From Desulfobacterium sp. (GTDB taxonomy: Bacteria > Desulfobacterota > Desulfobacteria > Desulfobacterales > Desulfobacteraceae): a DNA stretch of 34,536 nt. Numbering within the stretch: the stretch's first letter is position 1; each line of letters starts with the position of its first letter. The notes beneath the pieces were generated by a model, which did no database searches, was not told where the DNA came from, and worked only from the letters and a program-made list of their open reading frames with translations. A program made the translations under genes and the position numbers. Location: NCBI GenBank assembly GCA_030145245.1, contig JAQYWC010000058.1:1-34536 (forward strand), given 5' to 3'. Shown piece by piece: positions 27,638 through 30,720 of the stretch.

Positions 27638-28336
27638 CTACCCCTTAAGGGCTTTTACCTCGGCCTCACTCAGAAAGCGCCAGGCACCATTCTTGAGGTT
27701 GCCGAGCCTGACACTCCCCATCCTGATCCGCTTCAGGGTCCTGACCCGGTTTCCGGTCTCTTTCACCATCCGCCGGATCTGCCGATTTATCCCTTGCTTC
27801 AGCACGATGTTAAAGCTGTTTTCATCAACCCGCTTCACCCTGGCCCTCCGGGTTCGCTTACCATCCAGGACAATGCCGTCCGCCATTCGCTTGAGGGCCT
27901 CGTTACCCATGGGCCCAGCGGTTTCCACCACATACTCTTTTTCATGGTCAAAAGAGGGATGGGAAAGCCGGTTGTGGAGCTCCCCGTCATCGGTGAGAAG
28001 CAGAAGCCCCATGGAATCCTTGTCAAGCCGGCCGATGGGGTAAACCCTCTCCTTGATATCAATGAGATCAAGGACAATCCGCTCCCCCTTGTGGGAACAG
28101 GAGGTTACGATCCCCCTTGGCTTGTTAAGGGCGATATATATCTTCTTTTTGCCGGGGGAGTAGGTAATCTTTTTTCCGTCCACCTCCACCCGGTCGGTTT
28201 CAGGATCGATTTTCGTTCCAAGGGAGTCAATGGTCTCGTTGTTGACACGAACCCTTCCTGCGAGGATATACGTCTCCCCTTTTCTCCTGGAACACACTCC
28301 TGCCTGGGAAAGGAACTTCTGAAGTCTCATGCTCAT
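27638..28336 (-). CDS. rRNA pseudouridine synthase, RsuA/RluB/RluE/RluF family
   Basis: Isomerises uridine in ribosomal RNA. The 232-residue protein has an N-terminal S4 RNA-binding domain (about 1-60; MRLQKFLSQAGVCSRRKGE and the GRVRVNN turn) and a catalytic domain with the signature GRLDKDSMGLLLLTDDGE near 100-117, where the Asp is the nucleophile, and RQIRRM near 188. Which uridine in 16S or 23S rRNA is modified cannot be told; the layout is closest to RluB. The start ATG overlaps the argJ stop (ATGA). Confidence 0.92.
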   Translation of the reverse strand: MSMRLQKFLSQAGVCSRRKGETYILAGRVRVNNETIDSLGTKIDPETDRVEVDGKKITYSPGKKKIYIALNKPRGIVTSCSHKGERIVLDLIDIKERVYPIGRLDKDSMGLLLLTDDGELHNRLSHPSFDHEKEYVVETAGPMGNEALKRMADGIVLDGKRTRRARVKRVDENSFNIVLKQGINRQIRRMVKETGNRVRTLKRIRMGSVRLGNLKNGAWRFLSEAEVKALKG

Positions 28337-29502
28337 GAACGATAATCCGCGTTTATTTTAACGTAATTCTCTGAAAAGTCGCAAAACAGGTACCAGTCGC
28401 TGTACTCCCCGATATTGAGATCAAGGACCAACTCGATCTCATCTTTCTTCATGATCTGAGCAGCCTCTTTTTCCGCATCTTTTCCCTGCCATACCCCACC
28501 CTCAACAAGGGCAACATCGCCAAACTTCAGATCCAGCCGTTCCGGTTCCACCAGGGCACCGGATCTTCCTGCCGCAGCAACGATCCGTCCCCAGTTGGGA
28601 TCCTCCCCGTAGATGGCGGTTTTGACAAGGTTGGACTGGGCAACGGTCTCAGCCACTTTCAAAGCATCCTCCGGGGTTTTAGCTCCGTTCACAAGAATCC
28701 TGACAAGTTTTGTGGCCCCCTCCCCGTCCCTGACGACCTTTTTTGACAGATCCAGAAGCACCTCGTCCAGGAGGCGCTGGAATTCAATGGAGTCGTCACT
28801 GTCCTCCAGAACCGCCTGGGACATGCCGTTTGCAAGGGCAAATACCGAATCGTTGGTGCTGGTGTCCCCATCCACGGAGATCCGGTTAAAGGAACGGTCA
28901 CACGCCTTTTTCAGGCAGGCCTGAAGCAGTGTGGAAGGAATATCAAGATCGGTCACCACAAAGGCGAGCATGGTTGCCATGTTCGGCTTGATCATGCCCG
29001 ACCCCTTGGCCATCCCGGTGATGGTAAACTCCCCGCCCTTTACCCTGCAACGCCTGGTTGAGACCTTGACCGTCAGATCAGTGGTCAGGATGGCCGTTGC
29101 AAACGCTTCCGTCTGATCCTCCCCCATGTTGCCGACAAGCCCGGGAATGCCCTTTTCGATCTTCTCCATGGGAAGGGGGGCGCCGATCACCCCGGTTGAA
29201 GACACCATGACAAGCTCAGGGGCTATTCCCAAAGCCTTGGCGGCAAGGACCGCGGTTTTTTCCGCATCCTCAAGCCCTTTTGTTCCGGTAAAGCAGTTGG
29301 CATTGCCCGAGTTCACCACAATTGCCTGGCAGAGCCCGGTTTTTATCCTCTCCCGGCCAAGGACCACCGGGGCTGCGACCACCTGATTCTGGGTAAAAAG
29401 AGCTGCCGCCCTGGCAGGCCTTTCGGAAAAGATAATGCCGAAATCCATGGAATCGTTAGTCTTTATCCCGGCACTGATTCCGTTGAACTTAAAGCCTTTC
29501 AT
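28333..29502 (-). CDS. argJ: Bifunctional ornithine acetyltransferase / N-acetylglutamate synthase
   Basis: Recycles the acetyl group in arginine synthesis by moving it from N-acetylornithine to glutamate. The 389-residue precursor has SSTGVIGAPLPM, the self-cleavage site in KPNMATMLAF, where Thr becomes the N-terminal nucleophile of the beta chain, and VDGDTSTNDSV. The start is ATG at 29502 with AGGAG 5 bases upstream. Whether it can also use acetyl-CoA is not visible. No other arg genes lie in the window; its partner here is a pseudouridine synthase, a loose association. Confidence 0.96.
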   Translation of the reverse strand: MKGFKFNGISAGIKTNDSMDFGIIFSERPARAAALFTQNQVVAAPVVLGRERIKTGLCQAIVVNSGNANCFTGTKGLEDAEKTAVLAAKALGIAPELVMVSSTGVIGAPLPMEKIEKGIPGLVGNMGEDQTEAFATAILTTDLTVKVSTRRCRVKGGEFTITGMAKGSGMIKPNMATMLAFVVTDLDIPSTLLQACLKKACDRSFNRISVDGDTSTNDSVFALANGMSQAVLEDSDDSIEFQRLLDEVLLDLSKKVVRDGEGATKLVRILVNGAKTPEDALKVAETVAQSNLVKTAIYGEDPNWGRIVAAAGRSGALVEPERLDLKFGDVALVEGGVWQGKDAEKEAAQIMKKDEIELVLDLNIGEYSDWYLFCDFSENYVKINADYRS

Positions 29503-29603
29503 ATGTTCTCCTGTCAAAATATATAGTTATTTTTAATATAATAGCCTGCAATCATACACCCCAACACAGATTTTTGGAATATTTTTTACTTTTATGAATA
29601 AGG

Positions 29604-29640: not shown

Positions 29641-29668
29641 TTGACTTTTCGATTTTTTGTCATATTAT
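29641..29668 (+). promoter_or_regulatory. Probable promoter for the selenoprotein-truA unit
   Basis: TTGACT (29641-29646), a 16-base spacer, then TATTAT (29663-29668). Both boxes are one base from consensus. Transcription would start near 29675 and give a leader of about 120 bases made almost entirely of the palindromic GGGGACAG repeats. Confidence 0.6.
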
Positions 29669-29692
29669 TTGGCGCGTATCGGGGACAATATC

Positions 29693-29790
29693 GGGGACAG
29701 ATTTCAAATCTGTCCCCATGGCTGGATTTTGAATCTGTCCCCATGGCTGAAACTTATCGGGGACCGATTTCAAATCCGTCCCCATGGCTG
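29693..29790. repeat. Cluster of GGGGACAGATTT palindromes with CCCCATGGCTG tails
   Basis: Three units: a perfect 25-base palindrome (29693-29717, GGGGACAGATTT arms around one C), a half unit ending at 29742, and a near-perfect palindrome at 29759-29783 with GGGGACCGATTT and one mismatch. Each is followed by CCCCATGGCTG. The last tail (29780-29790) leads straight into the GGAG ribosome site of the selenoprotein gene. The layout is like clustered REP or similar intergenic palindromes. Confidence 0.85.
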
Positions 29791-29797
29791 GAGAATT

Positions 29798-29983
29798 ATG
29801 ACGAACAATACCGAGAGTACATGCCCCGCATGCGGCGGCACCCTATACATCAAACGCTCCTGAACCAGGGTTTATTTCAGCTGCAGGTCCTGCGGCAAAA
29901 ATTTTCCCATGGAAACACACAACGAACTCATGGACGATCGCCTTGAGGAGCAGCTTGCCAACGTTCCGTGCAACAGGCTATGA
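29798..29983 (+). CDS. Dual-CxxC small selenoprotein (UGA at codon 22 read as selenocysteine)
   Basis: A 61-residue protein if the in-frame TGA at 29861-29863 is read as selenocysteine. Before it: MTNNTEST then CPACGGTLYIKRS. After it: TRVYFSCRSCGKNFPM, then an acidic tail MDDRLEEQLANVPCNRL. Two CxxC motifs (residues 9-12 and 29-32) form a zinc-ribbon-like pair, and Sec 22 lies between them. A hairpin with the hallmarks of a bacterial SECIS begins right after the TGA (29874-29902). The layout agrees with the family I recall as dual CXXC motif small (seleno)protein; function is unknown, and redox or metal-thiol chemistry is only a guess. GGAG at 29790 lies 4 bases before the ATG. The final TGA overlaps the truA ATG, so translating past the internal UGA would couple to truA. 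If UGA is not decoded, a 21-residue stub results. Confidence 0.88.
29874..29902 (+). promoter_or_regulatory. Bacterial-type SECIS element
   Basis: GCTGCA and TGCGGC pair over 6 bp (one G-U) around the loop GGTCC, with a lower helix ATTT/AAAT across a small internal loop. The apical part TGCAGGTC is the same as in the E. coli fdhF SECIS, whose GGUC loop binds SelB. There are 22 bases between the TGA and the loop GG, against about 18 in fdhF, within the range used by bacterial SECIS elements. It lies inside the coding frame, as bacterial SECIS elements do. Confidence 0.85.
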
Positions 29984-30720
29984 CCAATTTCAAGATCACC
30001 ATTGAGTACGACGGCACTCCTTTTTCCGGGTGGCAGGTGCAGAACGACTGCAAAACGGTCCAGGGTGAGATCCAACAGGCCCTCTCCCTGATCCTGAACC
30101 AGCCGGTGAGAATCAACGGCTCCGGCAGAACCGATGCCGGGGTCCATGCCCTGGCCCAGGTGGCCACCTTTAACGCAGAGACGGGAATCAAGTGCCAGGC
30201 ACTGAAAAAAGGGTTGAACAGTGTAATCAAGGGACCCATTGTGATTCACGAATGCACCCGGGTTGATGACGGGTTCCATGCACGGTACAACGCCAGGGCC
30301 AAGGAGTATCACTACCATATCCTGAACAGACAGGATCCCTGTGCCGTTGGCAGCAATTACCTCTGGCACATCCAAAAGCCCCTGGACCTTACCGCCATGG
30401 AAGAATGCTGTGAAATCATTACGGGCACCCACGACTTCAAAGCGTTCGAAGGAGCGGGCAGCCCTCGCTCCACCACGGTCAGGACCCTGTTTTCGGCAGG
30501 GTTTGACACGGAAAACGATCACCGGCTCAGGTTCAGGGTCCGGGGAGACGGCTTTCTGAGATTCATGGTGAGAAACATCGTCGGCACCCTTGTACTTGCC
30601 GGAATTGGCAAAATTTCTCCCAAGGAATTCAAGACGATTCTCGAAAAACAGGACAGGAATCTTGCAGGTGCAACTGCCCCTGCCAAGGGACTCTTTCTGG
30701 TGACCGTCTTCTATAATTAA
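29980..30720 (+). CDS. truA: tRNA pseudouridine(38-40) synthase
   Basis: Modifies uridines 38, 39 and 40 in the anticodon arm. The 246-residue protein starts MTNFKITIEYDGTPFSGW, has the catalytic GSGRTDAGVHALAQVA around 46-61 (Asp nucleophile), RYNARAKEYHYHI near 100-112 and the C-terminal FMVRNIVGTLVLAG typical of TruA. The ATG at 29980 overlaps the selenoprotein stop (ATGA) and has no clear SD of its own, so translation may depend on ribosomes that pass the selenocysteine codon. An upstream GTG (29968) is the alternative start. Confidence 0.95.
   Translation: MTNFKITIEYDGTPFSGWQVQNDCKTVQGEIQQALSLILNQPVRINGSGRTDAGVHALAQVATFNAETGIKCQALKKGLNSVIKGPIVIHECTRVDDGFHARYNARAKEYHYHILNRQDPCAVGSNYLWHIQKPLDLTAMEECCEIITGTHDFKAFEGAGSPRSTTVRTLFSAGFDTENDHRLRFRVRGDGFLRFMVRNIVGTLVLAGIGKISPKEFKTILEKQDRNLAGATAPAKGLFLVTVFYN

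Follow-up and report, generated by a model that had tools for sequence, protein, structure and literature searches.

Does the TGA at codon 22 of a short reading frame just upstream of truA terminate a peptide, or is it translated as selenocysteine (Sec)? The frame lies in a 34,536-nucleotide stretch of Desulfobacterium sp. DNA, referred to here as the window, where it runs on the forward strand from an ATG at 29798 through the TGA at 29861-29863 to a final TGA stop at 29981-29983. An earlier note on this DNA had described a 61-residue selenoprotein gene at this site, and translation of 29798-29983 confirms that frame, yielding MTNNTESTCPACGGTLYIKRSUTRVYFSCRSCGKNFPMETHNELMDDRLEEQLANVPCNRL with U at residue 22. 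On the same strand, the TGA is flanked by two putative zinc knuckles, C9-P-A-C12 (29822-29833) and C29-R-S-C32 (29882-29893), and the ATG is preceded by a probable ribosome binding site, read in the sequence as GGAG at 29790-29793. The truA gene follows on the forward strand at 29980-30720 (TIGR00071, 188.7 bits, cut-off 142.85), its ATG overlapping the selenoprotein stop as ATGA (29980-29983). Upstream, argJ is divergently oriented on the reverse strand (28333-29517; NF003802, 506.6 bits, cut-off 351), and a gene for an RsuA/RluF-like pseudouridine synthase lies beyond it. The segment 29689-29792 contains a REP-like perfect palindrome, GGGGACAGATTTCAAATCTGTCCCC, at 29693-29717, with degenerate copies extending as far as this probable ribosome binding site; with N in its centre, this palindrome has 35 exact copies genome-wide, compared with 0 for the reversed control.

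Were the UGA an ordinary stop, the locus would encode a 21-residue peptide or represent a decayed gene, and truA would be started at an internal site. Mechanical ORF calling (at least 60 aa) is compatible with such a reading, as its sole product from the selenoprotein frame is a 68-aa fragment (29657-29863) that ends at the codon-22 TGA. The same may be said of a comparison with one close relative (L168), in which the first 21 codons carry one synonymous and five non-synonymous changes, so that the short first part alone gives no sign of purifying selection in this pair; after the TGA, the changes number six synonymous and three non-synonymous. Across 32 sequences chosen for diversity, however, residues are conserved on either side of the TGA and onward to the end of the protein, bearing out the coding character that the earlier note had seen on both sides. 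This conservation, the presence of either UGA or a Cys codon at one and the same column among relatives, and a hairpin whose conservation is tied to the UGA lead us to reject a plain stop, which the Sec machinery of the genome also argues against and which we regard as highly improbable. Among the 1437 TGA codons in the six frames of the window, that at codon 22 is the only one flanked by CxxC on both sides at the spacing of the family described below, an arrangement that is more than chance.

Against the NCBIfam model NF041197 ("dual CXXC motif small (seleno)protein"; cut-off 40), the read-through product scores 79.5 bits (E 1.5e-22) along the full length of the profile (positions 1-53 of 53), and the family named in the earlier note was thus the right one. 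In published selenoprotein tables, NF041197 appears as hypothetical protein OS_HP3 (PMC13188914; PMC9312934), and a 2007 paper on the Olavius algarvensis symbiont is cited in reviews (PMC9312934). Sec falls in the same column in OS_HP3 and the window protein, and the window protein carries the RxU motif given in a review table (PMC13188914); nothing essential distinguishes the window gene, which is an ordinary member. The predictor deep-Sep is reported to have recovered, in the genomes to which it was applied, every known selenoprotein gene other than OS_HP3 of Desulfosarcina widdelii (PMC12013277). The earlier suggestion that standard gene callers would miss such genes therefore holds only in part, as a published predictor did miss one member, whereas the NCBI annotation library already has a model for the family.

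The genome itself encodes tRNA-Sec (75.7 bits), SelB (363), SelA (601.4), and SelD (372.8), each above its cut-off, and hence all of selA, selB, selC, and selD; a lack of selB or selC would, by the earlier note, have refuted its interpretation. Its SelD frame (L204, G000:C33:156-1079) holds one in-frame TGA, so SelD is probably itself a selenoprotein. RNase P RNA is likewise present in this genome; it is not a Sec component and has no bearing on the selenoprotein. We conclude that the UGA at codon 22 almost certainly specifies Sec, and we hold with high confidence that the window gene is a UGA-recoded selenoprotein belonging to NF041197 (OS_HP3). It is a new member of a catalogued family, not a new family.

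Matches to NF041197 were found in 77 of 98 genomes (the source genome and 97 relatives) and in 0 of 14 control genomes. When the best match per genome is considered, 68 of the 77 contain one internal TGA, 8 have Cys at the same residue, and 1 is truncated; all 8 Cys genomes belong to a single genus (g8). As the earlier reading had anticipated, the residue-22 column of the homologs is either UGA or a Cys codon, and their sequences run on past it. The truncated match (L094, in genome G018) begins only at profile position 18, having lost the first half and the Sec site and kept the second knuckle and tail, and represents either decay or a new start. SelB scores above cut-off in 86 of the 98 genomes, including, by visual comparison, 62 of the 68 with UGA and all 8 with Cys, the latter count indicating that SelB was retained where Cys took the place of Sec. 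In the other six UGA genomes (G008, G013, G024, G065, G069, and G090), no SelB scores above cut-off; these are drafts of 180-1270 contigs that are 70-100% complete.

The closer-relative set comprises 81 loci, of which 71 have UGA and 8 have Cys; two fit no Sec/Cys pattern, namely the truncated L094 and L097, which is another zinc ribbon. Phylum-wide, NF041197 matches 115 of 395 genomes, 88 of them above cut-off, and the phylum loci examined are a part of these matches, consisting of 30 (one being the window's own) plus 40, among which 20 were chosen as weak; one comparison of the UGA/Cys column omits L146. A scan of named genomes yielded 35 loci. The titles of 34 entries give Desulfobacteraceae, Desulfobacterales, or a genus belonging to them, whereas the remaining one says only Proteobacteria; the nearest locus comes from a Desulfobacterium sp. 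MAG, and the cultured relatives Desulfospira joergensenii DSM 10085 and Desulfocicer vacuolatum DSM 3385 are among the named entries. In the window protein, as in its relatives, two CxxC motifs enclose a Sec or Cys placed six residues before the second CxxC, a spacing shared by every distinct gene parsed with a pattern allowing four to eight (119 of 119 with UGA, 35 of 35 with Cys). The residue two places before Sec is Arg or Lys in 94 of 104 main-branch sequences; among Cys sequences it is Arg in 34 of 35.

Bacterial SECIS elements present a loop G 16-37 bases after the UGA, and a SECIS-like hairpin of the window gene places its loop G within this range. The GGTC loop lies, as had been stated, 22 bases past the TGA, at 29886-29889. 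The hairpin reported in the earlier note is likewise real, although its limits (29874-29902) are not retained: a core stem-loop, GCUGCAG-GUC-CUGCGGC, spans 29880-29896 on the forward strand, overlapping the codons of C29, R30, S31, C32, and G33, and is enclosed by a longer, imperfect hairpin at about 29868-29908, for which folding of 29861-29910 gives a z score of -2.58. Folding energies were computed for four stretches, two of which gave z scores of -2.58 and -2.94 (equaled by 4 and 3 of 200 shuffles), compared with -0.99 and -0.94 for the other two (32 and 30 of 200), and by energy alone the hairpin is only moderately unusual. An Rfam search of 29700-30100 returned no match at E <= 1. The sequence TGCAGGTCNTGC occurs once in the window versus 0.02 expected, with 2 of 100 shuffles containing one. 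The element resembles the SECIS of E. coli fdhF in that the UGA is followed by a stem with a GGUC loop, and TGCAGGTC does occur in E. coli fdhF, as claimed, being common to both. It differs in spacing, with 18 bases separating GGTC from the fdhF TGA, which we take to be the Sec codon of that gene, compared with 22 in the window gene, and in that the stem of the window gene occupies zinc-knuckle codons.

Because Cys genes need no SECIS, they serve as a control for the hairpin. We compared 154 distinct sequences among 182 parsed, comprising 102 main-branch UGA genes, 17 UGA genes of a divergent branch, and 35 Cys genes; one hairpin comparison excluded L047, L093, L095, and L096 in addition to L094 and L097. 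The apical stem is paired in 91% of cells for main-branch UGA genes, 78% for divergent UGA genes, and 66% for Cys genes, absolute figures that flatter every set, since the Cys codons by themselves impose two of the six pairs. When the stem is slid along the 102 main-branch UGA genes, pairing reaches at most 55%, as opposed to 91% in register. More can be learned from single pairs set against shuffles. The outer pair 16:32 is formed in 78% of main-branch UGA genes versus 56% in shuffles (0 of 2000 reach this value) and in 23% of Cys genes versus 18% (423 of 2000). For pair 17:31, the corresponding values are 80% versus 72% (0 of 2000) in UGA genes and 49% versus 43% (350 of 2000) in Cys genes, and for pair 15:33 they are 56% versus 45% (4 of 2000) and 51% versus 40% (61 of 2000). 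The lower pairs 12:36 and 13:35, which belong to the longer hairpin, give no covariation signal in UGA genes by the shuffle test. In Cys genes, pair 12:36 exceeds every one of its shuffles, which shows that the shuffles leave relatedness in.

Codon usage and residue identity follow the same division. Among main-branch UGA genes, TGC encodes 196 of 204 Cys in the second knuckle versus 148 of 204 in the first, whereas the two knuckles of Cys genes are nearly alike (53 of 70 and 55 of 70), as are those of the divergent branch (23 of 34 and 22 of 34), and the TGC signature thus belongs to the main branch. For the 70 UGA genes of the first set alone, the contrast is 139:1 versus 100:40 (Fisher P 1.7e-12, relatedness ignored). 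The residues between the second-knuckle Cys are RS in 62 of the 102 main-branch UGA genes, compared with mainly PA, DA, TG, and KS in Cys genes, in which Arg never comes first. Judged from these alignments, hairpin and second CxxC knuckle are one and the same element, with residues and TGC codons that are kept in UGA genes and relaxed in Cys genes. This difference suggests that the CRSC motif largely reflects the RNA signal, and in our reading it would be conserved largely because AGG-UC makes the SECIS loop.

A divergent UGA branch also exists. In many genomes, a second or only NF041197 match of approximately 20-37 bits contains one TGA at the equivalent place, as in CKYCGGKAIIEGTUAKARVRCLTCGIERPAKEYQEEIEALKE; the members assigned to this branch (L128-L134, L136, L137, L139-L141, L145-L147, and L096) were picked among matches below the NF041197 cut-off. 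In 7 of 17 divergent genes, a different hairpin nearer the UGA pairs fully (GGUGAG/CUCACC or GGUAAG/CUUACC), with changes on both sides. Nine hand-picked whole proteins, seven from the divergent branch and side types together with one main-branch variant and one Cys form, score 46.1, 46.1, 45.1, 41.8, 25.0, 32.2, 44.6, 37.7, and 35.6 bits against NF041197 with Cys substituted for Sec, indicating that the curated model covers part of the divergent branch. Two loci (L143 and L144) represent a third type, in which CU or SU precedes QGL and the C-terminus lacks an acidic tail comparable to the one in the window protein.

The genes surrounding the family vary by lineage. In 76 loci (the window's own and 8 Cys loci included), the gene is followed by TruA in 30 and has ArgJ upstream in 29; a phosphoribosyltransferase occurs in 20, and ArgG lies on the same strand in 14. 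ArgJ, TruA, the RsuA-like protein, xanthine phosphoribosyltransferase, ArgG, and PyrE were each checked by profile on one representative, and other labels reflect our reading. Two different arrangements place argJ or argG in the flanks of 43 of the 76 loci, and a PyrE-like ORF directly precedes the gene in 12 of 28 phylum Cys loci (L111-L117, L119, L122, L127, L149, and L150), at frame distances, counted from unchecked starts, of a 4 nt overlap to 32 nt. These associations raise the idea that the protein is a small acidic carrier, or an adaptor, in the biosynthesis of amino acids or nucleotides, comparable to LysW in lysine and arginine synthesis, and weak LysW matches (E 0.11; PDB 3wwl, E 0.37) point the same way. 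Phylum-wide, however, argJ or argG accompanies just 1 of 24 UGA, 0 of 28 Cys, and 0 of 16 divergent loci, and synteny within an order is inherited. The window protein, moreover, scores 12.6 bits against the LysW model NF041070 (cut-off 75) and lacks the EDWGE motif found at the LysW C-terminus. With the arginine-gene neighborhood nearly confined to closer relatives, we reject the LysW-type carrier as the main explanation and consider it unlikely. No constant partner gene was seen in the flanks examined, which are short (mostly 1.5-3 kb), so that absences from them are weak evidence; as the neighborhood changes between lineages, we also reject the idea that gene context points to a fixed partner.

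An AlphaFold2 model was built for the window protein with 30 of the 35 named-genome relatives, using Cys for Sec (alignment A3). Confidence is modest (mean pLDDT 64.4, 72-75 over residues 11-40; pTM 0.43), with strands at residues 15-20 and 25-29 and a helix at 47-53. These strands would put residue 22 in a turn at the end of the ribbon far from the four Cys, and Sec22 is accordingly predicted to sit at the tip of a zinc-ribbon hairpin, away from the zinc ligands. Foldseek gave no match at E < 0.001 (best E-value 0.24). Its more probable matches (probability 0.84-0.92, TMq 0.43-0.47, rmsd 1.3-2.1) are chains labeled I or J in Pol II and Pol III complexes, which we read as RPB9 or RPC10, and the likeness to their N-terminal zinc ribbon concerns the core fold, at an E-value that is not significant.

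Such matches suggest a ribbon associated with transcription or translation, like those of RPB9, RPC10, or TFIIS, in which the tip would contact a nucleic-acid enzyme and Sec would render that contact redox sensitive. Zn_ribbon_RPB9 is indeed the best Pfam match (24.1 bits, cut-off 25.2), RPC10 ranks first among solved structures searched with A3 and second, after 2jrp, with a more diverse alignment (A1, 31 loci hand-picked from 81), and the neighbors include truA, the RsuA-like synthase, and, in three divergent-branch loci, a topA-like ORF (labeled by reading). Yet all of these matches are marginal and common to zinc ribbons in general, and RPC10, as aligned, has neither Cys nor Sec at the hairpin tip. 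We regard this role as doubtful, although less so than that of a LysW-type carrier.

The search of solved structures with A1 is led by PDB 2jrp, with E 1.7e-6 overall and 9.9e-5 for its best stretch; its title is "putative cytoplasmic protein," and we take it to be a YfgJ; 2jne, listed as yfgJ, follows RPC10 at E 0.0014. With the closer alignment A3, these values become 0.44 for 2jrp and 0.55 for 2jne. A single hhalign comparison of A1 with E. coli K-12 YfgJ gave 73.8% over 25 columns (E 2.9e-5). The second ribbon of YfgJ, C34-x2-C37-x9-C47-x6-C54, reproduces the spacing of C9, C12, U22, and C29, and these four Cys are invariant in six YfgJ-like sequences (K-12 and 5 of 11 records, the five being 39-67% identical to K-12). 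YfgJ differs in having an extra N-terminal ribbon, Cys in place of Sec, and another C-terminus. The window protein scores 17.3 bits against PF07191 (Zn_ribbon_6; cut-off 25) and one phylum Cys member of NF041197 scores 23.7 against the same cut-off; over 197 phylum genomes, PF07191 matches lie mostly in long frames of other proteins. The link to YfgJ is thus a lead, not membership, with a sequence likeness that appears confined to the second ribbon. Literature searches, judged by title and the beginning of the abstract, found no study of YfgJ function; searches pairing yfgJ with selenoprotein, joining selenoprotein, zinc ribbon, and Desulfo, or pairing selenoprotein with PGAP returned no papers.

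With the recoding signal, the family membership, and the exchange of Sec and Cys as observations, the following mechanism may be proposed. SelB with tRNA-Sec most likely decodes the UGA at 29861-29863 as Sec under the direction of the hairpin, the stem of which consists of second-CxxC codons. The product would be a minimal zinc ribbon in which C9, C12, C29, and C32 bind zinc and strands 15-20 and 25-29 form the predicted hairpin. Sec22 would occupy the tip of that hairpin, within an R-x-U motif that has basic residues around it, and an acidic C-terminal helix would follow. A solvent-exposed selenol or thiol might then react with an oxidant, an electrophile, or the thiol of a partner protein, with the ribbon and acidic tail serving to dock; drawing on general knowledge of Sec, we tentatively put forward this reaction as the most likely activity, while placing its probability somewhat below even. 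Cys members, perhaps including E. coli YfgJ with Cys47, could perform the same work with sulfur. By extension, NF041197, the divergent UGA branch, and E. coli YfgJ might constitute a single "tip-chalcogen" zinc-ribbon superfamily, in which the apex Sec or Cys is the working residue, the second knuckle of selenium members is the SECIS, and CRSC is dictated by the RNA and relaxes upon replacement by Cys, a proposal to which we give appreciable but less than even weight.

The window gene adds one case to a catalogued, functionally blank selenoprotein family, and interest centers on the double use of the second knuckle, the tip position predicted for Sec, and the lead to YfgJ. NF041197 gains from the comparison a structural hypothesis, that of a lone Sec at an exposed hairpin tip as opposed to a CxxU redox pair. 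The hairpin comparison also carries a warning, in that a conserved selenoprotein motif can be the footprint of an RNA signal instead of a mark of function. E. coli K-12 YfgJ is a possible tractable relative of NF041197, and if the tip-chalcogen superfamily is real, its Cys47 would allow the function to be tested in that strain.
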